NCBI RefSeq assembly: GCF_001579845.1 | Contig: NZ_CP007440.1 | Span: forward strand, 7,648,029-7,712,028 | Direction: 5' to 3' | DNA from: Rhodoplanes sp. Z2-YC6860 | GTDB taxonomy: Bacteria; Pseudomonadota; Alphaproteobacteria; Rhizobiales; Xanthobacteraceae | Length of the DNA: 64,000 nucleotides | Part shown: piece by piece, positions 1 to 9,916 of the stretch | Numbering within the stretch: the first letter of the stretch is position 1 | How the letters are laid out: each line of letters opens with the position of its first letter | The notes under the pieces: generated by a model | Told to the model about the DNA's origin: nothing | What the model saw: the letters and a program-made list of their open reading frames with translations, nothing else | Database searches by the model: none | Made by a program: the position numbers and the translations under genes

Positions 1-522
1 GTCGGCGAACCGATGCCTCTCTTCGACCTGCCCGACGAGACCGGCAGTCTCGTCTCGCTCGCATCGATGCTGCAATCGGGGCCGGTGGTCGTCAGCATCA
101 ATCGCGGCCATTGGTGCCCCTATTGCAAGATGGAACTGCGAGCGCTGGCAACCGCGCAACAACGAATCGCGAAGCTCGGCGCGCGGATCGTCTCGATCAT
201 GCCGGACACAGCGCAATACACCAGCGGCTATGCTGTGCAGAACGATCTGCCATTTCCGGTGCTGAGCGATATGGACCTCGGTTATTCGCTAGCGCTTGGC
301 TTGATCTTCTGGGTTGGTGCAGAGGTCCAGCAGCTCTATCAGGACGCCGGTGTCGAGCTCGAAAAGTACCAAGACAACCAGGGCTATTTCCTGCCGATGG
401 CGGCGAAATTCATCGTGGGCCGCGACGGGCTGATCAAGGCCCGGCAAGTCAATGTCGAATTTCGCGAGCGCATGGAGCCCGAGGCGATCATTGCGGCGCT
501 CGAGGCGCTGCGCGGCGCGTAA
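1..522 (+). CDS. Peroxiredoxin-like AhpC/TSA-family protein (5' end outside window)
   Basis: The open frame runs into the window from position 1, in phase with the ATG at 13, so the N terminus is missing. Alignment by eye with the complete paralogue at 5056-5754 puts position 13 about 70 residues into the protein. It has a thioredoxin fold with the motif RGHWCPYC: a resolving-type CxxC sits where peroxiredoxins carry the peroxidatic cysteine. This subgroup is usually annotated as peroxiredoxin-like or AhpC/TSA; the substrate is unknown and a cytosolic thiol peroxidase role is inferred. It lies 118 bp ahead of the bufferin operon on the same strand, but a separate operator-like repeat lies between them, so they are probably not one transcript. 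Confidence 0.85.
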   Translation, partial: VGEPMPLFDLPDETGSLVSLASMLQSGPVVVSINRGHWCPYCKMELRALATAQQRIAKLGARIVSIMPDTAQYTSGYAVQNDLPFPVLSDMDLGYSLALGLIFWVGAEVQQLYQDAGVELEKYQDNQGYFLPMAAKFIVGRDGLIKARQVNVEFRERMEPEAIIAALEALRGA

Positions 523-528
523 ACTGGC

Positions 529-543
529 ATAGCGCTCCGCTAT
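529..543. promoter_or_regulatory. Putative LysR-type operator, ATAG-N7-CTAT, upstream of bufA
   Basis: Perfect inverted repeat ATAGCG-CTC-CGCTAT, 97 bp before the bufA start codon. The spacing matches the T-N11-A rule of LysR-type boxes. The same 15-bp form recurs upstream of six other starts in the first 8 kb. Binding by the LysR protein encoded at 4136 is inferred. Confidence 0.6.
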
Positions 544-600
544 CGCAACGATTGGCCGACGATATTTCATCTCATGCGTCAAAGGCGGCACTCTCGTCTC

Positions 601-620
601 AACGCTCGATCATGAGCGTT
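601..620. promoter_or_regulatory. Inverted repeat in bufA leader
   Basis: AACGCTC-GATCAT-GAGCGTT is a perfect 7-bp inverted repeat that ends about 9 bp before the bufA Shine-Dalgarno (GGGAGAG). It could be an operator or an mRNA hairpin near the ribosome site. No homologous copy was noticed elsewhere. Confidence 0.4.
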
Positions 621-640
621 TCGCAAACGGGAGAGTTCTC

Positions 641-925
641 ATGTCGCACAAGACCACATTGTCGCTCGCGATCGCAGCCGCGCTCACGTCCGCCCTTGCC
701 ACGACCGTGGTTTCCACCGCGCAGGCCGGCGCCAAAGAGAAATGCTACGGCGTCGCATTGAAAGGCCAGAACGATTGCGCGGCCGGTGCCGGCACCACCT
801 GCGCGGCGACCTCGAAGGTCGACTACCAGGGCAATGCCTGGAGGCTCGTCGACCAGGGCAGCTGCATCACCACGCAGACGCCGCAAGGCGCAGGCTCGCT
901 GACGCCGATCAAGCGGCCGTCGTAA
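641..925 (+). CDS. bufA: Bufferin-type RiPP precursor, DUF2282 family (BufA1-like)
   Basis: 94-residue exported protein. An N-terminal signal peptide (hydrophobic stretch about residues 7-28, cleavage likely after AQA) precedes a short core with four cysteines at 35, 46, 54 and 75, the pattern of DUF2282 bufferins. In that family, MNIO enzymes convert core cysteines to thiooxazole-type groups that bind copper in the periplasm (established for Caulobacter bufferins). The gene is followed by the MNIO enzyme and its DUF2063 partner. GGGAGAG lies 6 bp before the ATG. The unusual feature is the promoter region: an inverted repeat shared with nearby redox genes suggests LysR control, not the ECF-sigma control known in Caulobacter. 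Copper binding here is inferred from family membership. Confidence 0.88.
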
Positions 926-995
926 CCCGCCTCGCGGAAGCCGGTGCGGTGCGCCGCGCTGGCTTCCGCCCCACGGCCGCCACGGGAGGAACGCT

Positions 996-1844
996 ATGGC
1001 TCATTGCATTGCCGGCACAGGGCTCAAGCCCGAGCACGCGGACGACATTTTCGCAGGCGCCCGCCGCGTCGATTTCTTCGAGATTCACGCCGAGAACTAC
1101 ATGGGCGCCGGTGGTCCGCCGCATCATCTGCTGCGCCGCATTCGTGCCGACTATCCGCTGTCGATCCATGGCGTGGGACTTTCGATCGGCGGTACAGCGC
1201 CGCTTGATCGCGCACATCTGATGCGACTGAAACGACTCGTTAGGACGTATGAGCCGGCGTTGTTCTCCGAACATCTTGCCTGGTCGACTCATGATGGTGT
1301 GTTCCTGAACGATCTTCTGCCGCTGCCTTACAACGACATCTCGCTCGCCCATGTCTGCGCCCATGTGAACGAGGTGCAAGACACGCTCGGCATGCGGATG
1401 CTTCTGGAGAATCCCTCCACTTATGTCGCCTTCGGCGCGACCCAGATGAGCGAGATCGAATTTCTCGGCACCGTCGCGCAGCGCACCGGCTGCGGACTTC
1501 TGCTCGATGTCAACAACGTGCATGTCTCGGCGGTCAACCATGGCTTCGACGCCGGGGCCTATATCGACGACTTCCCAATCCAGCATGTCGGGCAATTCCA
1601 TCTTGCGGGCTTCGCCGAAGACCGCGACAGCACCGGAGCCGAACTCCTGATCGACAATCACGGCCAGCTGGTCGCGGACATCGTTTGGGATCTCTACCGG
1701 CAGGCGCTAGCGCATGGCTGCCTCGCCCCTACCTTGGTCGAGTGGGACAACAATTTGCCGCCGTTCGAGACGCTGACCACCGACGTCGAGCGGGCGCGGA
1801 CGCTGATGCTGGCGCAAGCCGCCGACCTCAAGCAGGCTGCGTAA
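996..1844 (+). CDS. bufB: Multinuclear non-heme iron oxidase, DUF692 (BufB-like)
   Basis: 282-residue TIM-barrel enzyme of the MNIO/DUF692 family, which oxidises cysteines of peptide precursors with iron and oxygen. Conserved metal and active-site positions are visible: FFEIHAENY near residue 27 (E29, H31, N34), H58, SEH at 91-93, LLENPSTY with E138, LLLDVNNVH with D171 and H176, and FHLAGF with H202. Length is normal for the family. It starts 71 bp after bufA and ends 4 bp before bufC, so the three genes form one operon. The substrate is almost certainly the upstream DUF2282 peptide. No signal peptide is present, so modification happens in the cytosol before export. Confidence 0.93.
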   Translation: MAHCIAGTGLKPEHADDIFAGARRVDFFEIHAENYMGAGGPPHHLLRRIRADYPLSIHGVGLSIGGTAPLDRAHLMRLKRLVRTYEPALFSEHLAWSTHDGVFLNDLLPLPYNDISLAHVCAHVNEVQDTLGMRMLLENPSTYVAFGATQMSEIEFLGTVAQRTGCGLLLDVNNVHVSAVNHGFDAGAYIDDFPIQHVGQFHLAGFAEDRDSTGAELLIDNHGQLVADIVWDLYRQALAHGCLAPTLVEWDNNLPPFETLTTDVERARTLMLAQAADLKQAA

Positions 1845-1848
1845 CGCC

Positions 1849-2622
1849 ATGATCGCGCTATCCATCGAGAGCGGTCACGCCCAGCTTCAGCGCGACTTCG
1901 CCGAAGCGATCCTGTTCGACGACGCGCCGATCCCGGCAACGATCCGCTCGGCGTCCGGCCCGGCGCATGCCAGCCGCTTCGGCGTCTATCGCAACAATGT
2001 CATCTCTGGTCTGATCAATGCGCTCGCGGCGCGCTATCCGGTGACGCGGAAGCTGCTCTGGGACGATGCGTTCCACGCCGTGGCACGGCGTTACGTGGCC
2101 ACGGAGCCGCCCCGCTCGCCGGTGATGTTCGAATACGGCGATGGCTTCCCACAGTTTCTCCGCGAAATCGGCCGGAGCACGGCATCTGATTACCTCGCCG
2201 ACGTGGCTGAGCTCGAAGCGGCACGCACGCGCGCCTATCACGCGGCCGACGCCACGCCACTGCCGCGCGAAGCGTTTGCCGCCATCGCGCCGGAGGACTT
2301 GCCGGAGCTACGGCTTACGCTGCATCCGTCGGTCGTGCTGCTCGCATCGCGCTTTCCGGTGGTGAGCATCTGGGAGGCGAACCGGTCCGAGAACGACAAT
2401 ATGCTCCGCACCTGGAGGCCGGAATGCGCGCTGATCGCACGGCCATATGGGCAGGTCGAAGTCCGGCCGCTGTCGGTGGCCGTGCATGCTTTCGTGGCGG
2501 CGCTCGCCGATGGCTGCACGCTCGACACAGCGATTGCGAAAGGCGGCTCGGATTTCGACTTGGCCGAAGGCTTTGCCACGCTGATTTCCGCAGAGATCGT
2601 GAGGGACCCCGGGGCTCGATAG
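1849..2622 (+). CDS. bufC: DUF2063 partner protein of the MNIO enzyme (BufC-like)
   Basis: 257-residue protein with an N-terminal DUF2063 DNA-binding-like fold (about residues 10-100; the segment around RFGVYRNNV is typical) and a C-terminal domain of the HvfC/BufC type. In bufferin systems this protein assists the MNIO enzyme, probably by recognising the precursor. It begins 4 bp after bufB, which implies translational coupling. No DoxX/BufD-like gene follows directly; the closest DoxX gene in the window is about 4.6 kb away on the other strand (7199-7672). Function rests on family and context. Confidence 0.88.
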   Translation: MIALSIESGHAQLQRDFAEAILFDDAPIPATIRSASGPAHASRFGVYRNNVISGLINALAARYPVTRKLLWDDAFHAVARRYVATEPPRSPVMFEYGDGFPQFLREIGRSTASDYLADVAELEAARTRAYHAADATPLPREAFAAIAPEDLPELRLTLHPSVVLLASRFPVVSIWEANRSENDNMLRTWRPECALIARPYGQVEVRPLSVAVHAFVAALADGCTLDTAIAKGGSDFDLAEGFATLISAEIVRDPGAR

Positions 2623-2684
2623 TGCGACACGGATGGCCCGCATCTCATTGACATGACGCGATTTCTTCGGCGCCTCGCCCGACG

Positions 2685-2699
2685 ATAGCCGCTGGGTAT
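2685..2699. promoter_or_regulatory. Putative LysR-type operator upstream of ndh
   Basis: ATAG-CCGCTGG-GTAT, one mismatch from ATAG-N7-CTAT, 90 bp before the ndh start codon. Same spacing from the start as the other copies of this motif. Confidence 0.42.
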
Positions 2700-2789
2700 G
2701 AAGCGCATAGGTGATGGAACCTTGTTCCGCGACACCATGGCTGTAGCAATGGCTAGGGATCGGTTTCGCCAAACGATCTGGAGCGGATT

Positions 2790-4112
2790 ATGGATGAGAC
2801 CCGGATTCACCAAAGCCGGAAATCACAAGTCGTGATCGTGGGCGCCGGCTTCGGCGGATTGTCGGCCGCCAAGGATCTCGCCAAGGCGCCGTTCGAGATC
2901 ACACTGATCGACCGGAACAACCACCACCTGTTCCAGCCGCTGCTCTATCAGGTGGCGACCGCGGGCCTCTCGCCCGCCGACATTGCTTCGCCGATCCGCC
3001 ACATCCTGAGCGGTCAACGCAATCTCAAGGTCATGCTCGGAGAGGTCACCGGAGTCGATCTCGGCCGCAAGGAGGTGATCGCCGACGGCCGGCGCGTGCC
3101 TTACGACTATCTCGTGCTTGGGACTGGCGCGCGGCATGCCTATTTCGGCCACGACGACTGGGCGGCGTTCGCGCCAGGTCTCAAGACGCTTGACGACGCA
3201 ACCGCCTTGCGACGCCGCATCCTCTTGGCATTCGAGCGCGCCGAGACCGAGGATAATGCCGATGAGCGCGCGCGGCTTCTGACCTTCGTGGTGATCGGCG
3301 GTGGTCCAACCGGCGTCGAGGTCGCAGGCGCCATCGCCGAGCTTGCCAAGCGCGCGCTCGCCTCGGACTTCCGCTCGATCGATCCGCGCTGTGCGCGTAT
3401 CATCCTGGTCGAAGCTGCTCCACGCGTGCTTGCGCCCTTCGATCAAACATTGTCGGATGCGGCGCGACATTCGCTCGAACAACTGGGCGTCGAAGTGCAG
3501 CTCGGCGCAGCGGTCACCCATTGCAGCGACGACGGCGTTCGCCTTGGCGACAGCTTCATCCCTGCGCGCACCATCATCTGGGCGGCCGGCGTGATGGCCT
3601 CGCCGGCCGGCCGTTGGCTCGGCGCCGAGACCGACCGCGCCGGCCGGGTCAAGGTCCGCGCCGACCTGTCGGTGCCCGGCCATCCCGAGGTGTTCGTGAT
3701 CGGCGACACCGCCGCAGTCACCGATGCCAACGGCACGATACTGCCGGGTATTGCGCCGGTCGCCAAGCAGCAGGGCCAATACGTCGCCCGCGCTCTGATC
3801 GCCCGGCAGGACGGCCGCACTGTTCGGGCGTTCCGCTATCGCGACTACGGCATTCTCGCCACCATCGGCCGCTCGCGTGCGGTCGCGCAGTTCGGCAAGC
3901 TCAAGGTCACTGGCTTTCTGGCCTGGGCGCTGTGGAGCATCGCCCACGTCTACTTCCTGATCGGCTTCCGCAACCGGTTCGTCGTCGCGCTGAACTGGGC
4001 GTGGAGTTATCTCACGTTCGAGCGAGGGAGCCGTCTGATCACTGGACTGGACACGCTGCCCAGGGATAAGCGTCAGGGGTCGCGGACGGAGCTGCAGTCG
4101 AAGGCGAGCTGA
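2790..4112 (+). CDS. ndh: Type II NADH:quinone oxidoreductase-like flavoprotein
   Basis: 440-residue FAD enzyme that passes electrons from NADH to quinone without pumping protons, on the inner face of the membrane. An N-terminal FAD-binding GAGFGG lies at residues 18-23 and a second dinucleotide fold VIGGGPTGVE near residue 170. A C-terminal ATG-type FAD motif is visible (VFVIGDTAA, then GIAPVAKQQGQYVA), and a hydrophobic, aromatic C-terminal segment (about 370-415) suits membrane attachment. Length is usual for Ndh. The LysR gene starts 23 bp after it, so the two are probably co-transcribed. A motif shared with the bufferin and peroxiredoxin promoters precedes it, which suggests a stress-induced role. 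Confidence 0.88.
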   Translation: MDETRIHQSRKSQVVIVGAGFGGLSAAKDLAKAPFEITLIDRNNHHLFQPLLYQVATAGLSPADIASPIRHILSGQRNLKVMLGEVTGVDLGRKEVIADGRRVPYDYLVLGTGARHAYFGHDDWAAFAPGLKTLDDATALRRRILLAFERAETEDNADERARLLTFVVIGGGPTGVEVAGAIAELAKRALASDFRSIDPRCARIILVEAAPRVLAPFDQTLSDAARHSLEQLGVEVQLGAAVTHCSDDGVRLGDSFIPARTIIWAAGVMASPAGRWLGAETDRAGRVKVRADLSVPGHPEVFVIGDTAAVTDANGTILPGIAPVAKQQGQYVARALIARQDGRTVRAFRYRDYGILATIGRSRAVAQFGKLKVTGFLAWALWSIAHVYFLIGFRNRFVVALNWAWSYLTFERGSRLITGLDTLPRDKRQGSRTELQSKAS

Positions 4113-4135
4113 TCGCTCGTCCGGGGGGACTTCGA

Positions 4136-5023
4136 ATGGAGATGCATCAGGTCCGGTACTTCCTGGCCGTCGCCCGGACGCTGAACTTCACGCGTGCGGC
4201 CGACGAGTGCAACGTGGCGCAACCGTCGCTGACGCGCGCCATCAAGCTTCTAGAAGGCGAGCTGGGCGGCGATCTTTTTCGGCGCGAGCGGCCACGCGCG
4301 ATGCTGACGCCGCTCGGCGAGCGCATGTATCCGCTGCTTAAGCAGTGCTATGACAGCGCGCAGAGCGCCAAGGCGCTGGCCGCGATGATCAACGACGGTG
4401 AGGTCGGCGCGCTGAAGCTAGCGGTGTCGAGCAGCATCGAGCTTGGCCTGATTCTTTCGCAGGTCAGCGAACTGCGCAAAAGCTTCACCGAATTGGAGCT
4501 GAAGATCCTGCGCGGCACCGGCCCGCAGATCGTCGAATATCTCAAGGGCGGCGAGGCCGAGCTTGCGGTCGGCACGTCGATCGGCGAGGCCTGGGACCGG
4601 CTCGACAACTGGAAGCTGTTCGACGAATCCTTCGACATGGTGTTGAGCCGGATGCACCGTCTGGCGAGCCACGAAACCATCAGTCTCGACGATCTCAAGC
4701 CCGAGCGTTTCCTGCTGCGCAGCCACTGCGAAAAGTGCACCGACCTCGCCGCGATGCTGCGGGCGCAGGGCTTGAACGCCGACCATCGCCATGAGGTGTC
4801 GTCGGACCAGGACCTTTTGGCGCTGCTCGAAGCCAACATCGGCATCGGCTTTCTGCCACGCACCGTCAATGCGCCCCAGAGCCTGGTGCGCACCTCGGTA
4901 AAAGGCCTGGAACTCGGCCGCGCGGTGTCGCTCTACGGCGTCGCCGGCCGGCAGCGCTCACCAGTCGCTGCGACCTTCATGAAGATGCTGCGCGCCGCAA
5001 ACTGGCCAAAGAGGACGGACTGA
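4136..5023 (+). CDS. LysR-family transcriptional regulator
   Basis: 295-residue LysR-type regulator. The winged helix-turn-helix spans about residues 1-60 (starting MEMHQVRYFLAVARTLNF), followed by a linker helix and a periplasmic-binding-protein-like effector domain from about residue 90. A cysteine pair (CEKC near residue 197) in the effector domain could allow thiol-based sensing, as in OxyR-like proteins, but this is speculation. It lies 23 bp behind ndh. The seven ATAG-N7-CTAT-like repeats (T-N11-A boxes) around it make it the best candidate for the local regulator. LysR proteins usually bind near their own or a divergent promoter; no copy was seen just upstream of this gene, only upstream of ndh. 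Confidence 0.9.
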   Translation: MEMHQVRYFLAVARTLNFTRAADECNVAQPSLTRAIKLLEGELGGDLFRRERPRAMLTPLGERMYPLLKQCYDSAQSAKALAAMINDGEVGALKLAVSSSIELGLILSQVSELRKSFTELELKILRGTGPQIVEYLKGGEAELAVGTSIGEAWDRLDNWKLFDESFDMVLSRMHRLASHETISLDDLKPERFLLRSHCEKCTDLAAMLRAQGLNADHRHEVSSDQDLLALLEANIGIGFLPRTVNAPQSLVRTSVKGLELGRAVSLYGVAGRQRSPVAATFMKMLRAANWPKRTD

Positions 5024-5055
5024 GGCGCACTACGCACCGGCTTCGAGGCCGGACG

Positions 5056-5754
5056 CTACTGCAGCGCCGCAATCAGATCCTCGATTGCCATGCGCTTGCG
5101 GTAATCCGGGTCGACGAACCTGTTCTTGATGCGGCCGTCTTGGCTGACCACGAAGGTCGCGGGGATCGGCAGCATCCAGCTGTCGTTGCCCTGATAGGCC
5201 GGAAGCGTCCGCCCGATCCGGATCATGAACTCTTCCATCTCGGTGCCGACCCAGATCGCAAGATTGAGTGACATGGCATAGCCGTTGTCCATGTCCGTCA
5301 GGATCGGAAAGCGAACGTGGGAATCGGCCTTCATCTCGGCCGCGAAGGGCTGCCGGTCCGGCACGATCGCCACCATGCGGGCGCCGAGCGCCTCGATCCG
5401 CGATTGCGCCCTGGCCAGCGTATTGATGCTGATGCGGCAATAAGGGCACCAGTGGCCACGGTGGAAGGTCACCACCGCAGGGCCGTGCACCAGCAGGTCT
5501 TTGAGGCTGACCAGATGACCGCTTTCGTCGGGCAGCGTGAACGGCGGCATGACGTCGCCGGTTTGCGGCGCCGACTCGCCGGCGTGATGCTCCCGCAGTC
5601 GCGAGACCAGGCGATCAACCGTGGACGCGTCCTCCGGATGCAGCTTGCGAGCCGCGTCGGCGAAAATGTCGAGGCGTTCGGCCATCGACCCATCGAGATC
5701 GCGGGCCTGCTGGAACGCTTGCCTCATGTCCGTCACCACGATTGGCGTGGTCAT
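5056..5754 (-). CDS. Peroxiredoxin-like AhpC/TSA-family protein
   Basis: 232-residue thioredoxin-fold protein, a paralogue of the truncated gene at the left edge. An N-terminal helical region of about 70 residues precedes the redoxin domain, with the motif RGHWCPYC near residue 88 and a conserved QGNDSWMLPIPATFVV segment near the C terminus. The likely role is thiol-dependent reduction of peroxides or related oxidants in the cytosol; the exact substrate is not known for this subgroup. It faces the LysR gene convergently with 32 bp between stops. An exact ATAG-N7-CTAT site lies 79 bp upstream of the start, supporting control with the neighbouring redox genes. Confidence 0.88.
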   Translation of the reverse strand: MTTPIVVTDMRQAFQQARDLDGSMAERLDIFADAARKLHPEDASTVDRLVSRLREHHAGESAPQTGDVMPPFTLPDESGHLVSLKDLLVHGPAVVTFHRGHWCPYCRISINTLARAQSRIEALGARMVAIVPDRQPFAAEMKADSHVRFPILTDMDNGYAMSLNLAIWVGTEMEEFMIRIGRTLPAYQGNDSWMLPIPATFVVSQDGRIKNRFVDPDYRKRMAIEDLIAALQ

Positions 5755-5832
5755 CGCTTGATGTCCTTATCCGGATCGCCGAGTCATAAGCGATCCTGTT
5801 TCGGCCTTGCCAGTCAAATCAGGCGGTTTTCG

Positions 5833-5847
5833 ATAGCACCGGTCTAT
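5833..5847. promoter_or_regulatory. Putative LysR-type operator upstream of peroxiredoxin gene
   Basis: Exact ATAG-CACCGGT-CTAT inverted repeat, 78 bp from the start codon at 5754 (minus strand). The seven middle bases differ from the other copies while both ends are kept, which is what a protein-binding site would show. Confidence 0.6.
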
Positions 5848-5863
5848 AAATGCCGGCGAGCAC

Positions 5864-5906
5864 CGAAAAAGAGTGACGCCCCGTTTCGGGGCAAACGGAG
5901 CGTCAC
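5864..5906 (-). terminator. Rho-independent terminator of the cupin gene
   Basis: Read on the minus strand, GTGACGC-TCCGTTT pairs with AAACGGG-GCGTCAC (14 bp with one G-U pair) around the loop GCCCCG, followed by TCTTTTT. It lies 33 bp after the stop of the cupin gene at 5939. Confidence 0.8.
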
Positions 5907-5938
5907 GATGCGACGGGGCTCGTTGGGGGGACGAACCG

Positions 5939-6418
5939 TCACATATGGTGGTCGTTCGGATCGTGCCGGACATCGCCGATGAACAGCACCACCGGCGCGT
6001 CGCTGAGATTCTTCCACCAATGCGAGGTGCCCTGCGTTTCGGGGCGAATATCGCCGGCTTTGTGCACGATCGGGCCCGCGCAGTTGCTGGCATATTCAAT
6101 GATCTGGCCCTCGGCGACATAGATCAGGGCCGGACGGTCGTCATGGCTGTGCCACGGCACCACGCCGCCAGGCTGGATCACCATCTTGCGGAAGCGCAGC
6201 TCGCGGTCCTTGATCTTGGCCATCTCCTTGCCGAGATCGATCGCGCCAAGCGTGGTGTCGGTGACGCCGACGGGCTTAAAGTCGACCGCCTGGCGCGCGT
6301 TAGGCTTGCGCAGATCGGGCGGGCACTCGCCAGCCTGGGCAGCCACCACGGTGACGGCAAAAGCAGCCGAGGCCGCAGCCAGACGCAACAGGCCGCTCTT
6401 GGTTTCAAGCTTGAACAT
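5939..6418 (-). CDS. Secreted cupin-domain protein
   Basis: 159 residues. A signal peptide (hydrophobic AAASAAFAVTVVAAQA, about residues 12-27) is followed by a small cupin barrel with a metal-type motif, PWHSHDDRP near residue 88, and a histidine in the second strand (GTSHWWKN). The ATG at 6418 is preferred because AGAGGAG sits 6 bp upstream; an ATG at 6424 abuts that site directly. The protein would act in the periplasm; the substrate is unknown. It is a single-gene transcript with a strong terminator, and an exact ATAG-N7-CTAT site lies about 100 bp upstream. Confidence 0.85.
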   Translation of the reverse strand: MFKLETKSGLLRLAAASAAFAVTVVAAQAGECPPDLRKPNARQAVDFKPVGVTDTTLGAIDLGKEMAKIKDRELRFRKMVIQPGGVVPWHSHDDRPALIYVAEGQIIEYASNCAGPIVHKAGDIRPETQGTSHWWKNLSDAPVVLFIGDVRHDPNDHHM

Positions 6419-6474
6419 CTTCATCTCCTCTGTTCGATTAAAATGGTGCAATAGCTATTCAGTGATCCGATGAT

Positions 6475-6490
6475 GGAACGCGCGCGTTCC
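6475..6490. promoter_or_regulatory. Perfect 16-bp palindrome GGAACGCGCGCGTTCC
   Basis: A perfect palindrome about 57 bp upstream of the cupin start (minus strand), between that start and the ATAG-N7-CTAT site. A 10-bp palindrome AATAGCTATT lies a few bases nearer the gene. It may be a second operator overlapping the cupin promoter. No U-tract, so a terminator is unlikely. Confidence 0.45.
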
Positions 6491-6520
6491 GTTAGGAAAT
6501 GCCGCTTCGCTCTGATCGCG

Positions 6521-6535
6521 ATAGCGCTGCGCTAT
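6521..6535. promoter_or_regulatory. Putative LysR-type operator upstream of cupin gene
   Basis: Exact ATAGCG-CTG-CGCTAT, 14 of 15 bases identical to the site before bufA (529-543). It is 102 bp from the cupin start and directly behind the DUF302 stop codon. Confidence 0.6.
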
Positions 6536-6540
6536 TTCGT

Positions 6541-7020
6541 CTAGGCTTTGACGCTCGACGTGATCGACGCGATCACCATCGAAGCCATCTTGAATTGATC
6601 AGTGCGATTGGCGATGCCGTGCCGCGCGGCGATCCAGGCGAAGTCGGTGTAGACGATCCACACCGCACCGGCATTATCCTCCGTCACCAAGAGGCGCACC
6701 GGCCAGTCGAGGCCGGCGTTGGGATTCGACGTGATGAATTGCGTGCCGAGCGGCGGATTGCCGAACACCAGCAGCGTCGATGGATTGAGCTTGATGCCGG
6801 CTTCGCCTGCGAGCTTTGTCTGGTCGATTTCGCTGAAGAACTTGATGCCTTTGGCGTCGATGTCCTGCTTCAAGCGCTCGATGGTCTCGGCAAAGCCGTA
6901 CCCGCTTTTTATGCTGACAATACCGTCTTTTGATTTTGCGGCGGCGCCGGCCGCCGGGTTCACTGCAAGGGCCGCAGCCGCGACACCCGAAAGACGCAGG
7001 AATTTTGCTCTGCTTAGCAT
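6541..7020 (-). CDS. Exported DUF302 protein
   Basis: 159 residues. A hydrophobic export signal (about residues 9-27, GVAAAALAVNPAAGAAA) precedes a DUF302 domain, recognisable from the pattern around SGYGFAETIERLKQDIDAKG and the conserved LLVFGNPPLGT. The family is of unknown biochemical function and often sits with redox or metal-stress genes. The start at 7020 is chosen because CGGAGG lies about 8 bp upstream and a signal peptide begins there; the frame is open further upstream without a better start. A one-mismatch ATAG-N7-CTAT site lies 100 bp upstream. Confidence 0.85.
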   Translation of the reverse strand: MLSRAKFLRLSGVAAAALAVNPAAGAAAKSKDGIVSIKSGYGFAETIERLKQDIDAKGIKFFSEIDQTKLAGEAGIKLNPSTLLVFGNPPLGTQFITSNPNAGLDWPVRLLVTEDNAGAVWIVYTDFAWIAARHGIANRTDQFKMASMVIASITSSVKA

Positions 7021-7119
7021 GGATTCATCCTCCGATGGCCGGCGCTTGATTGCGCCGAGCGATGCATCACAATGCTGCAATAGAACGATCGACTGAATTA
7101 CCGTTGTTCTCTCGATCCG

Positions 7120-7134
7120 ATAGCGCGCGTGCAT
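7120..7134. promoter_or_regulatory. Putative LysR-type operator upstream of DUF302 gene
   Basis: ATAG-CGCGCGT-GCAT, one mismatch in the right arm, 99 bp from the DUF302 start at 7020 (minus strand). It shares the CGC after ATAG seen in three of the exact copies. Confidence 0.42.
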
Positions 7135-7144
7135 CAGCCAGCAC

Positions 7145-7185
7145 AAAAAGGAAAGCCGCCAAGCGCAGTCGCGCTCGGCGGCTTT
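7145..7185 (-). terminator. Rho-independent terminator of the DoxX gene
   Basis: On the minus strand AAAGCCGCC-G-AGCGC pairs with GCGCT-T-GGCGGCTTT around GACT, followed by CCTTTTT. It lies 13 bp after the DoxX stop and separates it from the DUF302 promoter. Confidence 0.85.
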
Positions 7186-7198
7186 GTGGGCGTTGAGC

Positions 7199-7672
7199 TC
7201 AAGCGTGCGCGTTTCGAGGCGCGGCAGCCTGCATGCGCGGAAATCTATTCGATACCAGGTGATCGATCGAGACCGCACCGGGTCCGCGCGCGATGATCAG
7301 CGTCAGCAGCGACAACCACAGAATATGCTCGGGCCAGCCGCCCGGCACGACGAAGAGTTGGATCACGAGCGTCATGCCGAACAATCCGAGCGCCGAAATC
7401 CGTGACGCCAGGCCCACGACCAGCAGCACCGAGAAGACGTGTTCGCCGAAGGTGCTGAGATAGGCCGCGAGATCCGGCGGCAGCAGCGGCACCTTGTACT
7501 CTTCACGGAACAGATAGAACGTCTCCTCGCGGATCGAGAAGCCATTCACCTTGGTCCGGGCCGAACGCCAGAACACGTCGGCGACCGCGACGCGCGACGC
7601 CAGCGCGATCAAGCTATAGGGAATTCGCTCGGCCAGATCGCGGCCTTTCTCCAGAACATCTTGGATGACCAT
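7199..7672 (-). CDS. DoxX-family membrane protein
   Basis: 157 residues with about four membrane segments. The DoxX hallmark is seen in the first half (LIALASRVAVADVFWRSARTKVNGF) and the helix GEHVFSVLLVVGLASRISALGLF. DoxX proteins sit in the inner membrane and take part in redox or thiol-stress responses; relatives (BufD/HvfD) occur in bufferin and MNIO operons. Here the gene is separated from bufABC but lies in the same cluster. Start chosen at 7672, where AGGAG lies 7 bp upstream. Divergent from the SDR gene at 7881; the 208-bp gap holds two operator-like repeats, one placed for each gene. Confidence 0.85.
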   Translation of the reverse strand: MVIQDVLEKGRDLAERIPYSLIALASRVAVADVFWRSARTKVNGFSIREETFYLFREEYKVPLLPPDLAAYLSTFGEHVFSVLLVVGLASRISALGLFGMTLVIQLFVVPGGWPEHILWLSLLTLIIARGPGAVSIDHLVSNRFPRMQAAAPRNAHA

Positions 7673-7756
7673 CGAAGTCTCCTGCTTTGAGCTGTGATGC
7701 ACCCCAGCAAACACAAACGCCCGTCTTTGCAAAAATACCGATTGGCGATGTGCGCG

Positions 7757-7771
7757 ATAGCGCACGTCTAT
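7757..7771. promoter_or_regulatory. Putative LysR-type operator, DoxX side
   Basis: Exact ATAG-CGCACGT-CTAT, 84 bp from the DoxX start at 7672. It overlaps another inverted repeat, GTGCGC-GATA-GCGCAC (7750-7765). Confidence 0.6.
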
Positions 7772-7782
7772 CCGGCTCTTCG

Positions 7783-7797
7783 TTAGCCCGGAGCTAT
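7783..7797. promoter_or_regulatory. Putative LysR-type operator, SDR side
   Basis: TTAG-CCCGGAG-CTAT, one mismatch from the motif, 83 bp before the SDR start at 7881. It mirrors the DoxX-side site in the shared divergent promoter region. Confidence 0.42.
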
Positions 7798-7880
7798 CGT
7801 CGACGTAGCCAATCGGCATTTTCCGCGCGTTCGCGGCTCGGGCATTTTCGCGCCAACGCCTTACGCAAGGGACGTCGACC

Positions 7881-8705
7881 ATGAATATTCAAGCGCCGCT
7901 TCCGCTCGATCAAACCACCCGGCCGCTCGCGGGCCGCGTCTCGCTCGTCAGCGGTTCGACCAGCGGCATCGGGCTGGGCATCGCCCGCGCGCTCGCCGCG
8001 GCGGGCTCAGCCGTCGTGCTCAACGGTTTCGGCAAGCCCGAGGACATCGCCGAGACCCAGGCCAGGATCGGCTCCGAATTTGGCGTCCGGGTGCGCTATT
8101 CGGGTGCCGATATGTCGAAACCCACGCCCATTGCCGAGATGATCGCGATGGCACTCGACGCGTTCGGCCGGCTCGACATCCTGGTCAACAATGCCGGCAT
8201 CCAGCATGTCGCGCCGCTCGAGCAATTCCCGGTCGAGAAGTGGGACGCGGTCCTCGCCATCAATCTTTCATCGGCCTTTCACACCACGCGCCTGGCTCTA
8301 CCGGCGATGCGCAAGAACAACTTCGGCCGCATCATCAACATCGCCTCAGCGCACGGCCTCGTCGCCTCGCCGTTCAAGGCCGCCTATGTGGCGGCCAAGC
8401 ACGGCATGATCGGCCTCACCAAGGTCACGGCGCTGGAAGCTGCCGAAGCCAACATCACCTGCAACGCGATCTGCCCAGGCTATGTCTACACGCCGCTGGT
8501 CGAGGCGCAGATCGAGGGCCAAGCCAAGGCGCACGGCATTCCGCGCGAGCAGGTGATCCGCGACGTGCTTCTGTCGCAGCAACCCAACAAGCGCTTTGCC
8601 ACCGTCGAAGAGCTCGGCGCGCTTTCGGCTTTTCTGGCAAGCGACGCGGCTGCCTCCATCACCGGCGCGGCATTGCCGGTCGATGGCGGCTGGACCGCGC
8701 ATTGA
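7881..8705 (+). CDS. bdhA: 3-hydroxybutyrate dehydrogenase-like short-chain dehydrogenase
   Basis: 274-residue SDR enzyme. The cofactor motif SGSTSGIGLGIA lies near residue 24, NNAG near residue 101, the catalytic Ser in NIASAHG, and YVAAK near residue 170. The sequence type matches D-3-hydroxybutyrate dehydrogenase, which oxidises 3-hydroxybutyrate to acetoacetate with NAD in the polyhydroxybutyrate cycle. The patatin-like gene begins 59 bp downstream, a pairing common in alphaproteobacteria and consistent with lipid or PHB turnover. Other SDR substrates cannot be excluded by sequence alone. Confidence 0.85.
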   Translation: MNIQAPLPLDQTTRPLAGRVSLVSGSTSGIGLGIARALAAAGSAVVLNGFGKPEDIAETQARIGSEFGVRVRYSGADMSKPTPIAEMIAMALDAFGRLDILVNNAGIQHVAPLEQFPVEKWDAVLAINLSSAFHTTRLALPAMRKNNFGRIINIASAHGLVASPFKAAYVAAKHGMIGLTKVTALEAAEANITCNAICPGYVYTPLVEAQIEGQAKAHGIPREQVIRDVLLSQQPNKRFATVEELGALSAFLASDAAASITGAALPVDGGWTAH

Positions 8706-8764: not shown

Positions 8765-9916
8765 ATGGAAAGCAAGGTCACGACACTCGCCGACGCATGC
8801 CGCAGGGAGCAACCGAAGGAACGGCAGATCGTGCTGGTGCTGCAGGGCGGCGGCGCGCTCGGTGCCTATCAGGCCGGCGTCTATCACGCGCTGCACGAGC
8901 ACGGCATCGAACCGGACTGGATCATCGGCACATCGATCGGCGCTATCAATGCGAGCCTGATCGGTGGCAACCCGCCAGCCGAGCGGCTCGATAAACTCAA
9001 GGAATTCTGGACTCGTATGGCGTATCGGCCGCCGTTCGCGGTGCCGGCTTGGACCGGCGTTTCGGACACCATCGCGTACTGGAAGACTTTGCTGCGCGGC
9101 ATTCCGGCCTTCTTCGAGCCTAACGCCGGCGCGTTCCTCGGCACCCATGTGCCACTTGGTGCTGACAGCGCAGGCTTCTACTCCACCTCACCGCTCAGGG
9201 AGACGCTCACTGAACTCGTCGACTTCGAGCTGATCAACCGGTGCAAGCCGCGCATCACGGTCGGCGCGGCGCACGTGCGCACCAGCGAGATGCGCTACTT
9301 CGACAGCCGCGACGGCGAGATCGGCGTCGAGCACATCATGGCGTCGGGCGCGCTGCCGCCGGCGTTCCCAGCCGTGCGCATCGGCGGCGAGCTCTATTGG
9401 GACGGCGGCATCCTATCCAACACGCCAACCGAAGCGATCTTCGACGACAACCCGCGAAAGAATTCGCTGATTTTCGCTGTGCATCTCTGGAACCCGATGG
9501 GCCAGGAGCCCAGCACCATCTGGGAGGTGCTGAACCGCCACAAGGACATCCAGTATTCCAGCCGCGTCGCGAGCCACATCGCTCGGCAACGGCAGCTGCA
9601 TCACATGCGCCACATCATCAACGAGCTTGCAAACCTCTTGCCCGACGATGTGCGCAACACCGCCGAGGCGAAGGCTCTCACGGCCTATGGTTGCCCGACC
9701 GTCATGCACGTGGTGCGGCTGCTCGCGCCGCAACTCGAGAACGAGAACCACACCAAGGACGTCGACTTCAGCCCGGCAAGCATCCGGACGCGCTGGCAGG
9801 CGGGATACGAAAACACCATGCACGCTCTCAGCCAGGCGCCGTGGGAGGTCGAGACCGATCCGCTGGATGGCGTGATCCTGCACGAGCCGAACGTCGTGCT
9901 CGAAGCCGCCGAATAG
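8765..9916 (+). CDS. Patatin-like phospholipase with DUF3734 C terminus
   Basis: 383 residues. The patatin domain spans about residues 20-230: oxyanion loop LQGGGALGAYQ, nucleophile elbow GTSIG with the catalytic Ser near residue 60, and the catalytic-dyad Asp in DGG (YWDGGILSN). A DUF3734-type C-terminal region follows. The enzyme should be a cytosolic or membrane-associated serine acyl hydrolase. The start at 8765 follows AGGGAGGAG closely; the frame is open far upstream but overlaps the SDR gene. Probably co-transcribed with the SDR gene. Confidence 0.9.
   Translation: MESKVTTLADACRREQPKERQIVLVLQGGGALGAYQAGVYHALHEHGIEPDWIIGTSIGAINASLIGGNPPAERLDKLKEFWTRMAYRPPFAVPAWTGVSDTIAYWKTLLRGIPAFFEPNAGAFLGTHVPLGADSAGFYSTSPLRETLTELVDFELINRCKPRITVGAAHVRTSEMRYFDSRDGEIGVEHIMASGALPPAFPAVRIGGELYWDGGILSNTPTEAIFDDNPRKNSLIFAVHLWNPMGQEPSTIWEVLNRHKDIQYSSRVASHIARQRQLHHMRHIINELANLLPDDVRNTAEAKALTAYGCPTVMHVVRLLAPQLENENHTKDVDFSPASIRTRWQAGYENTMHALSQAPWEVETDPLDGVILHEPNVVLEAAE

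Follow-up and report, generated by a model that had tools for sequence, protein, structure and literature searches.

The LysR-type regulator encoded inside a gene cluster near the start of the window (the whole 64,000-nucleotide stretch of the Rhodoplanes sp. Z2-YC6860 genome that was analysed) very probably works a DNA switch shared by its neighbours. We put at about 0.78 the probability that this linked LysR binds a tandem operator and activates a compact local regulon that includes a bufferin operon. Clustering of the sites, conservation at orthologues and the co-occurrence of LysR and operator all support a LysR regulon, the interpretation already offered by a sequence-only reading of this DNA. 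The operator, its position, orientation and conservation, its co-occurrence with the LysR and its replacement of a sigmaF-type promoter at bufA are directly visible in the genomes compared; binding and activation are the likely explanation of that pattern.

All seven 15-bp sites listed by the sequence-only reading (529, 2685, 5833, 6521, 7120, 7757 and 7783) are present. Its tally of mismatches to ATAG-N7-CTAT stands for the exact dyads at 529, 5833, 6521 and 7757 and for the single mismatches at 2685 and 7783, but the site at 7120 has two mismatches rather than one: it reads ATAG-N7-GCAT on the + strand, ATGC-N7-CTAT in gene orientation, and lies outside the set of 14 window matches with at most one mismatch. 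The spacing of 78-102 bp between dyad and start codon was found as described (bufA 97, ndh 90, prx 78, cupin 102, DUF302 99, DoxX 84, SDR 83), as was the LysR gene within the cluster, whose product has HTH_1 (68.5 bits, cut-off 26.6) and LysR_substrate (110.3 bits, cut-off 28) domains. Five exact dyads occur within 8 kb around the cluster. The fifth, at genome 7647772, falls outside the window, 257 bp to the left of its edge, and precedes the prx gene whose 3' part begins the window. A further exact dyad at genome 7637329, 10.7 kb left of the window, precedes the open reading frame of a PAS protein; no second box was found there, as judged by eye. The features are collected in Table 1.

Table 1. 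Genes and regulatory sites of the cluster (window positions unless marked genome)
Feature	Position	Strand	Remarks
prxA dyad, exact, ATAGCCTTCCGCTAT	genome 7647772-7647786 (L114:17773)		second half not supported
prxA 3' part, peroxiredoxin	1..522	+	AhpC-TSA/Redoxin; starts at genome 7647834, outside window; ORF L114:17835-18551
bufA operator	529..569	+	exact dyad 529-543; second box ATTG-N7-ATAT-TTCA 551-569
bufA, bufferin precursor (DUF2282)	641..925	+	PF10048, E=1.2e-21
bufB, MNIO maturase	996..1844	+	NF050167, 375 bits (cut-off 310)
bufC, partner protein (DUF2063)	1849..2622	+	PF09836
ndh dyad, 1 mismatch	2685..2699	+	then ATAG at 22-bp period; second half unsupported by score
ndh, type II NADH dehydrogenase	2790..4112	+	Pyr_redox_2, NDH2_C
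lysR, presumed regulator	4136..5023	+	HTH_1, LysR_substrate; orthologues in 80 loci
prxB, peroxiredoxin	5056..5754	-	Redoxin/AhpC-TSA
prxB dyad, exact	5833..5847	-	second half not supported
cupin protein	5939..6418	-	Cupin_2; probable signal peptide (read by eye)
cupin operator, both halves	6495..6536	-	R1 36.9 bits, E=3e-8
DUF302 protein	6541..7020	-	PF03625
DUF302 operator	7094..7134	-	dyad with 2 mismatches, strong second half
DoxX membrane protein	7199..7672	-	PF07681; NF050144 (HvfX) 45.6 bits, below cut-off 80
DoxX operator, both halves	7731..7771	-	exact dyad
SDR operator	7783..7823	+	dyad with 1 mismatch, strong second half; R1 24.7 bits, E=2e-4
SDR oxidoreductase	7881..8705	+	PF13561, PF00106
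patatin-like protein (DUF3734), after SDR	8765..9916	+	PF01734, PF12536

In the orthologous loci the dyad belongs to a 43-bp LysR-type operator. Its second box, A[AG]AG-N7-GCAT-TTCA, lies 22 bp downstream of the dyad, is weaker than ATAG-N7-CTAT and ends in GGCATTTCA. We modelled the 43 bp as R1. From 48 non-redundant sites, 47 served for training, all but L052:9706, whose second box is not clear; the window and its nearest relative (L034) were kept out of the set. Of 3991 first-look candidates in the Rhodoplanes genome 150 were scored, and in the comparison across genomes, under stricter filters, 32 per genome. The motif is not scattered at random, an outcome that would have told against the sequence-only reading: six of the eight R1 matches at E<=10 in this genome fall in the cluster, the cupin operator ranking highest of the candidates scored. 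The second half is independently best at offset 0 in five of the eight sites of the genome and not in the other three (this scoring left out the DUF302 site of L034); both halves are present at bufA, cupin, DUF302, DoxX and SDR, whereas the score supports the dyad alone at ndh, prxA and prxB. At prxA, R1 matches the opposite strand and spans nothing but the dyad. At bufA the operator scores 14.6 bits, with only model positions 2-26 matched; its second half is best at offset 0, and 0.00008 of window positions score equally high. The ndh dyad is exact in L034 (ATAGCCTTGCGCTAT). The DoxX and SDR operators are divergent, their dyads 11 bp apart. The sites have the T-N11-A form of LysR targets, as had been noted earlier. 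The alignment of the 47 sites has the second (activation) box near -35, and its conserved A62 and T66 suggest a -10 element that would set the centre of the dyad at about -65.

The sequence-only reading had proposed looking for the motif at orthologous loci, and there the dyad is conserved. We took the 80 best-matching of 298 relatives and searched the DNA surrounding their lysR orthologues, 1.27 Mb in all. It holds 152 exact dyads against 13 matches to the reversed pattern, counts that are not independent because the loci are mostly from one genus, Bradyrhizobium. Eight of the 13 reversed matches lie between two neighbouring dyads and five elsewhere. An exact dyad is present in 76 of the loci, with none in L057, L074, L102 and L106; the presence of the LysR in each of the 80 is by construction, because the loci were found through it. 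Counting gene hits rather than loci, an exact dyad precedes the cupin gene in 73/73 rows and the DUF302 gene in 24/25, and a dyad with at most one mismatch precedes SDR in 50/52 and lysR in 71/82. For prx the figure is 31 exact dyads in 134 rows (reversed control 8), rows in which genes are entered twice, since the search used two Prx queries. Distances from dyad to gene are fixed across these loci. Of the 52 loci with an SDR hit, 51 have SDR and lysR pointing away from each other, 49 have a dyad between the two genes, and 51 have the patatin gene adjoining SDR. In seven other families a LysR homologue of 41-45% identity was examined; each of the seven has a prx hit within 3 kb, and four have an exact dyad (3-14 kb read per locus). 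Next to the distant homologues of the comparison across genomes, R1 at E<=0.01 gave no full operator.

A chance origin of the dyads is strongly disfavoured. The one-mismatch form is indeed common, its 729 occurrences in the genome falling below the 892 of the reversed control, and it has no genome-wide enrichment; the search by that form alone was dropped as uninformative. Within the window its 14 matches compare with 5.7 expected at the genome rate and 3.2 in shuffles. The exact form is rare, as the sequence-only reading had estimated (16 in 8,193,889 bp; reversed control 10), and ten of the 16 lie beyond an 18.5-kb neighbourhood of the cluster, or 1.22 per Mb. Given that outside rate, 0.009 would be expected in 7.3 kb, where four were found (Poisson 3e-10, for a region chosen after the fact). 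None of these ten (flanks L116-L124) is among the eight R1 matches. One of the ten, at genome 1542457, sits about 50 bp before another LysR gene. Against chance stand the clustering of the exact sites, their conservation across genomes, the second box and the fixed distances.

The linked LysR is favoured over other regulators by co-occurrence. With close LysR proteins defined as those of at least 54% identity and distant ones as those of at most 45% (a cut set after the gap had been seen), the operator at R1 E<=0.01 was found in 6/6 genomes of the order with a close LysR and in 4/193 without, 199 genomes in all. Co-occurrence does not prove binding, because the operator travels together with the LysR and the neighbouring genes in a single inherited block; cupin orthologues of at least 64% identity are confined to LysR-bearing genomes. 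The OxyR consensus consists of four ATAG/CTAT elements at a 22-bp period, so that half-site and period equal those found here; the genome encodes a canonical OxyR with GHC-N8-C (genome 375343-376245), and peroxiredoxins are among the targets. Even so, it is very improbable that the boxes are sites of this OxyR. OxyR-like proteins (E<=1e-65) occur in 141 of the 199 genomes and the operator in 10, and OxyR was rejected as cognate regulator on that ground; among the 135 OxyR-positive genomes that lack a close LysR the operator occurs in two (G159 and G019), about chance at E<=0.01. The operators moreover adjoin LysR genes, even lying divergently upstream of lysR. Their second box is degenerate and directional, unlike that of OxyR. 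Binding by some other LysR-type paralogue with a similar recognition helix is improbable. In its favour, an operator match in G037 (L167) adjoins a paralogue that is 35% identical and almost unchanged in this helix; in L179 a LysR of 31% identity accompanies an operator-like site upstream of a distant cupin gene; and LysR-type genes are numerous in the Rhodoplanes genome, where the OxyR-type LysR profile gives 68 matches. Yet the linked LysR is its own genome's only match at E<=1e-65.

The linked LysR resembles OxyR in its fold and in its predicted peroxiredoxin targets, and has an invariant cysteine in or close to the place of the peroxidatic one. C25, C71 and C198 are cysteine in 81/81 aligned rows, C25 and C198 also in 9/9 further homologues, and C198 is the only invariant cysteine of the effector domain in the 81 rows. 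It aligns with the peroxidatic (GHC) cysteine of two OxyR proteins and lies about two residues off the catalytic position in a profile alignment to Pseudomonas aeruginosa OxyR. An invariant cysteine this near the OxyR position suggests oxidant sensing. Unlike OxyR, the protein has no resolving cysteine at GHC-N8-C spacing (C201 is cysteine in 3/81 rows), and it scores 83.6 bits against the OxyR family profile, below a cut-off of 329 that the canonical OxyR of the genome also fails to reach (267.8). The structure model has a mean pLDDT of 74.1, with effector-domain blocks mostly at 77-92 and the DNA-binding domain at about 50 or less. A PDB search with it places CcmR, OxyR, CbnR and BenM on a par, so the signal cannot be read from the fold. 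LsrB of the Rhizobiales offers a parallel, as a redox-responsive regulator of the LysR type that exists alongside OxyR in this order (PMC11975290). By its description in the available text of that source, LsrB differs in sharing an operon with trxB, whereas the linked lysR follows ndh and is followed by convergent prxB; in its cysteines (144/236/244/273 as against C25/C71/C198/C201); and in a large regulon where that of the linked LysR is local. Because lysR starts 24 bp after ndh, it is probably part of the ndh operon and autoregulated through the 2685 dyad.

The bufferin genes of this lineage appear to have come under the LysR switch instead of their usual control. They form a Buf1 core in the usual order (DUF2282 precursor, MNIO maturase BufB, DUF2063 partner), and bufB is the sole PF05114 match of the genome. 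The bufA-bufB-bufC core is shared with surveyed bufferin clusters, where Buf1 clusters are reported with sigma factor and NrsF genes and the word 'LysR' is absent from the main text as available (PMC12452194). The sigmaF/NrsF regulon of Caulobacter has the same kinds of target (DUF2282-DUF692-DUF2063, DoxX and a molybdopterin oxidoreductase); there the bufferin operons are described as controlled by an ECF sigma factor through GTAACC-N16-CGAA, whereas bufA of the window has a LysR operator and no such promoter (PMC3511200). A contrast between LysR and ECF control, anticipated by the sequence-only reading, thus appears as a promoter difference between genomes. In Bradyrhizobium, 5/5 bufA genes carry a sigmaF-type promoter (one mismatch) and lack the box; in the window (400-660) and L034 (5200-5480) no such promoter was found at up to two mismatches and spacings of 15-17, by a Caulobacter consensus that may be too strict, and both operator halves are present. 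Because the box replaces the sigmaF-type promoter, the predicted LysR control of the bufferin is well supported at the level of sequence. That the operon is still under sigmaF/NrsF, with the bufA dyad incidental or minor, is unlikely, and the same two promoter differences tell against it. In its favour, besides Caulobacter precedent, an ECF sigma-NrsF pair is kept 11.6-12.8 kb left of the window, and GTGACC-N16-CGAA precedes the DoxX gene adjoining that pair.

Across a wider survey of bufB (matched in 211/397 genomes), 10/41 rows had a sigmaF-type promoter no more than one mismatch away from the Caulobacter consensus; the 41 rows include the window (L137) and the duplicates L170-L172 and comprise 38 distinct loci. 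The best 29 other bufB loci of the order have no exact dyad and no R1 match at E<=1; at the same tolerance of one mismatch, five of them have a sigmaF-type promoter, so the Caulobacter consensus falls short of describing the whole order. L039, a Xanthobacteraceae metagenome-assembled genome, has an operon of bufA-like peptide, bufB, bufC and prx, and L183, from another family, has bufA-bufB beside lysR-prx. A literature search gave no title on LysR and bufferins among the matches listed, a weak test since 'bufferin' also matches 'buffering', and no title or abstract start describing the LysR regulon of the window among the matches listed.

We propose that the linked LysR would bind ATAG-N7-CTAT about 65 bp before the start of transcription, contact the second box, which abuts the -35 region 22 bp further downstream, and activate prxA, bufABC, ndh-lysR, prxB, cupin, DUF302, DoxX and SDR-patatin. 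The inducer would be an oxidant or thiol stress read by invariant Cys198, and the window bufferin may serve an oxidative programme instead of copper alone. More tentatively, a clade of cysteine-bearing LysR proteins, ancestrally paired with peroxiredoxins, might have recruited bufferin operons more than once (the window and L034, with the operator replacing a sigmaF-type promoter; L039; possibly L183), placing bufferins in a thiol or reactive-chlorine/oxygen response with the oxidant read through Cys198 without a resolving cysteine.

The close LysR group includes Bradyrhizobium named japonicum and diazoefficiens (among the best 80 of 298 relatives), both soybean symbionts. For this uncharacterised group, found in many Bradyrhizobium, a 43-bp operator and a proposed regulon are now ready to hand. 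Bufferin peptides are a recent addition to copper biology, with control described, in the available text of the sources, through ECF sigma factors; with related genomes placing the same operon under two types of promoter, it can be tested directly which signal bufferins answer to.

The sites before bufA, cupin, DUF302, DoxX and SDR are, judged from sequence, near-certain operators; those before ndh, prxB and prxA are likely operators, ranked lower because the second half of the operator is supported in the five and unsupported in the three. Aligning 47 non-redundant sites of orthologous loci, with the window and the nearest relative's locus (L034) left out, gave the consensus nnATAGC-N6-CTATCG-N6-[AG]AGC-N5-GGCATTTCA, with 11 invariant columns among its 43. 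LysR sites show a strong dyad followed by a weaker dyad at a 22-bp period, and the 43-column operator is of this pattern. The downstream columns A62 and T66 are compatible with a -10 element, which would put the centre of the dyad at about -65 and bring the second box up against -35. When a second-half matrix built from other genomes was scored alone, it peaked at the exact predicted offset at the five better-ranked window sites, where at most 0.00008 of window positions reach an equal score; at ndh, prxB and prxA the second half was not best at that offset. Of the seven L034 sites scored, those of bufA, cupin, DoxX and SDR likewise had their best second half at this offset, and those of ndh and both peroxiredoxin genes failed.

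A pattern scan recovered all four exact ATAG-N7-CTAT dyads proposed by the sequence-only reading (529, 5833, 6521 and 7757) and its one-mismatch copies at 2685 and 7783; the copy at 7120, put at one mismatch, has two. The spacing it described also holds, seven gene-oriented dyads stopping 78 to 102 bp ahead of start codons. The genome, a single contig of 8,193,889 bp with the window at 7648029-7712028, contains 16 exact dyads against 10 for a reversed control pattern; beyond the neighbourhood there are 10 of the 16, a density of 1.22 per Mb, and the 7.3 kb of the finding holds 4 against 0.009 expected. Five fall within 8 kb from genome position 7647772. With one mismatch allowed the motif is unenriched across the genome (729 versus 892 for the control), so lone imperfect dyads mean little. 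An exact dyad at L114:7330 (genome 7637329) lies ahead of an ORF with a PAS domain (L114:7424-7825); it shows no second box by eye and could be a further regulon member or chance; another at genome 1542457 (L121:1758), about 50 bp ahead of another LysR-type gene, is perhaps the autoregulatory site of that gene itself.

Features of the LysR cluster and its surroundings (R1 E, own-genome scan; dyads, counts in the 80 orthologous loci; L114, own-genome DNA reaching left of the window)
Feature	Position	R1 E	Exact dyad	At most one mismatch	Remark
cupin		3e-8	73/73		
SDR		2e-4	19/52	50/52	
prxA		0.03			match on strand opposite to prxA; near-palindromic dyad alone covered
DoxX		0.07	4/9		
bufA		0.33	1/6		
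DUF302		1.05	24/25		
lysR			21/82	71/82	
patatin			5/78	23/78	
Two partial matches elsewhere in genome		0.85 and 1.36			
Fifth exact dyad	257 bp left of window				ahead of prxA, whose gene end opens the window
NrsF + ECF sigma factor (sigmaF type)	L114:5223-6463 (genome 7635222-7636462)				left of window
Molybdopterin oxidoreductase (MsrP-like) + cytochrome b561	L114:11761-13269				4.8-6.3 kb left of window

Searching genome contigs with the LysR protein gave 298 relatives, of which the best 80 were retained; their loci total 1,273,858 bp, and kinship among them inflates the counts. These best 80 of 298 loci hold 152 exact dyads, spread over 76 of the 80, and 13 copies of the reversed pattern, 8 of which sit between two neighbouring dyads. 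The stretch counted for each gene ran from 260 bp ahead of its start to 40 bp past it, starts outside the window being inferred from alignments; these stretches gave no exact control match for SDR, lysR, DoxX, bufA or patatin, 4 for cupin and 5 for DUF302. Of the 52 loci having an SDR match, 51 have SDR and lysR in divergent orientation and 49 have a dyad in the space that separates the two genes; at 69 of 70 sites this dyad ends 66-71 bp ahead of lysR. The window's layout differs, lysR lying downstream of ndh, which carries its own dyad. Across the 80 loci, 22 pairs of exact dyads are separated by under 60 bp, their starts being most commonly 24 or 19 bp from each other, and such pairs occur in the gap from a peroxiredoxin gene to cupin or DUF302 (L049, L050, L061 and others), as if there were one dyad per divergent gene; the window pair 7757/7783 has the same layout, at 26 bp.

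R1, a model of the 43-bp operator trained without the window and L034, gave eight matches in the organism's own genome at E<=10, the ndh and prxB sites being absent from them, and the regulon looks local. Among 199 genomes from the order, 6 encode a LysR at 54% identity or more, and in every one of these an R1 match (E<=0.01) lies no more than 7 kb away on the contig that carries the gene; R1 matches 4 of the remaining 193 (Fisher 3e-9, kinship ignored). OxyR is disfavoured as the operator's partner by the presence of an OxyR-like protein in 141 of the 199 genomes. In seven other families, LysR homologues at 41-45% identity have a peroxiredoxin match within 3 kb in 7/7 cases, and an exact dyad lies near four of them (L168, L181, L184 and L186; 3-14 kb read). 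Among the genomes of these seven, the 199-genome scan gave an R1 match in G037 alone, beside a LysR paralogue of 35% identity whose recognition helix is almost identical and whose operator match adjoins it. With filters off, R1 matches L184 and L186 at E<=0.0015, L183 at 0.065 and L182 at 0.42, and even then neither L181 nor L185. The distant-homologue and paralogue results suggest that the dyad goes with a LysR clade that has peroxiredoxin as its oldest partner. At L167:5011-6920 the operator match of the paralogue stands before a membrane-protein gene of divergent orientation, and a bufferin operon is about 1 kb away.

C25, C71 and C198 of the LysR protein are invariant in 81/81 rows (the window and 80 orthologues, the best 80 of 298). 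Nine further homologues were aligned, the seven of 41-45%, one of 55% and the 35% paralogue; all nine retain C25 and C198, and two retain C71. C198 lines up with the peroxidatic cysteine in OxyR of Corynebacterium glutamicum and in the genome's own OxyR; in a profile alignment to Pseudomonas aeruginosa OxyR it lies about two residues off. Unlike OxyR, the window LysR lacks the resolving cysteine, and the OxyR family score is out of its reach. Given C198 and the targets (two peroxiredoxins, NDH-2, DoxX and cupin), our best guess is single-thiol sensing of an oxidant or electrophile. Proteins of the same general kinds have been listed among those whose genes are linked to chlorite dismutase: LysR regulators, an SDR and a cupin protein, the last suspected of a role in the reactive-chlorine response (PMC9751292).

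The genes bufA, bufB and bufC form a Buf1-type operon, the genome's only MNIO locus. In Caulobacter such operons are described as dependent on sigmaF, with the promoter GTAACC-N16-CGAA (PMC3511200). At each of the five Bradyrhizobium loci with bufA near this lysR (two of them MAGs), bufA is preceded by a one-mismatch sigmaF-type promoter and by no LysR operator; in the window and L034 the LysR operator occupies that position, and no sigmaF-type promoter is found before bufA at up to two mismatches. The suggested contrast between LysR and ECF-sigma control at bufferin matches a promoter difference predicted between genomes. In a wider bufB survey of 41 rows (38 distinct loci), the exact dyad before bufA occurs in the window and L034 only, and a sigmaF-type promoter in 10 rows. 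Left of the window, at 11.6-12.8 kb, the genome retains an ECF sigma-NrsF pair, adjoined by a divergent DoxX gene (L114:6631) with a sigmaF-type promoter, GTGACC-N16-CGAA, before it; the genome's molybdopterin oxidoreductase/cytochrome b561 pair recalls the Caulobacter sigmaF target YedY. An ORF at L114:8307-9638, which separates the sigmaF genes from the LysR cluster, looks by eye like a tyrosine recombinase; this junction could mark the edge of a mobile element.

Similar arrangements occur elsewhere. In L093 an exact dyad precedes a small ORF, bufC and a peroxiredoxin gene, with a weaker second half. A Xanthobacteraceae MAG (L039) has a one-mismatch dyad and a well-scoring second half, followed by a short cysteine-bearing peptide ORF, bufB, bufC and a peroxiredoxin gene, a site that R1 does not report at E<=0.5. 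L183 has a second-half match of 9.9 bits (E=0.065) placed 82 bp upstream of bufA, beside lysR and a peroxiredoxin gene, but no good dyad. From these sequences, two more lineages, those of L039 and L183, may share the same capture of bufferin.
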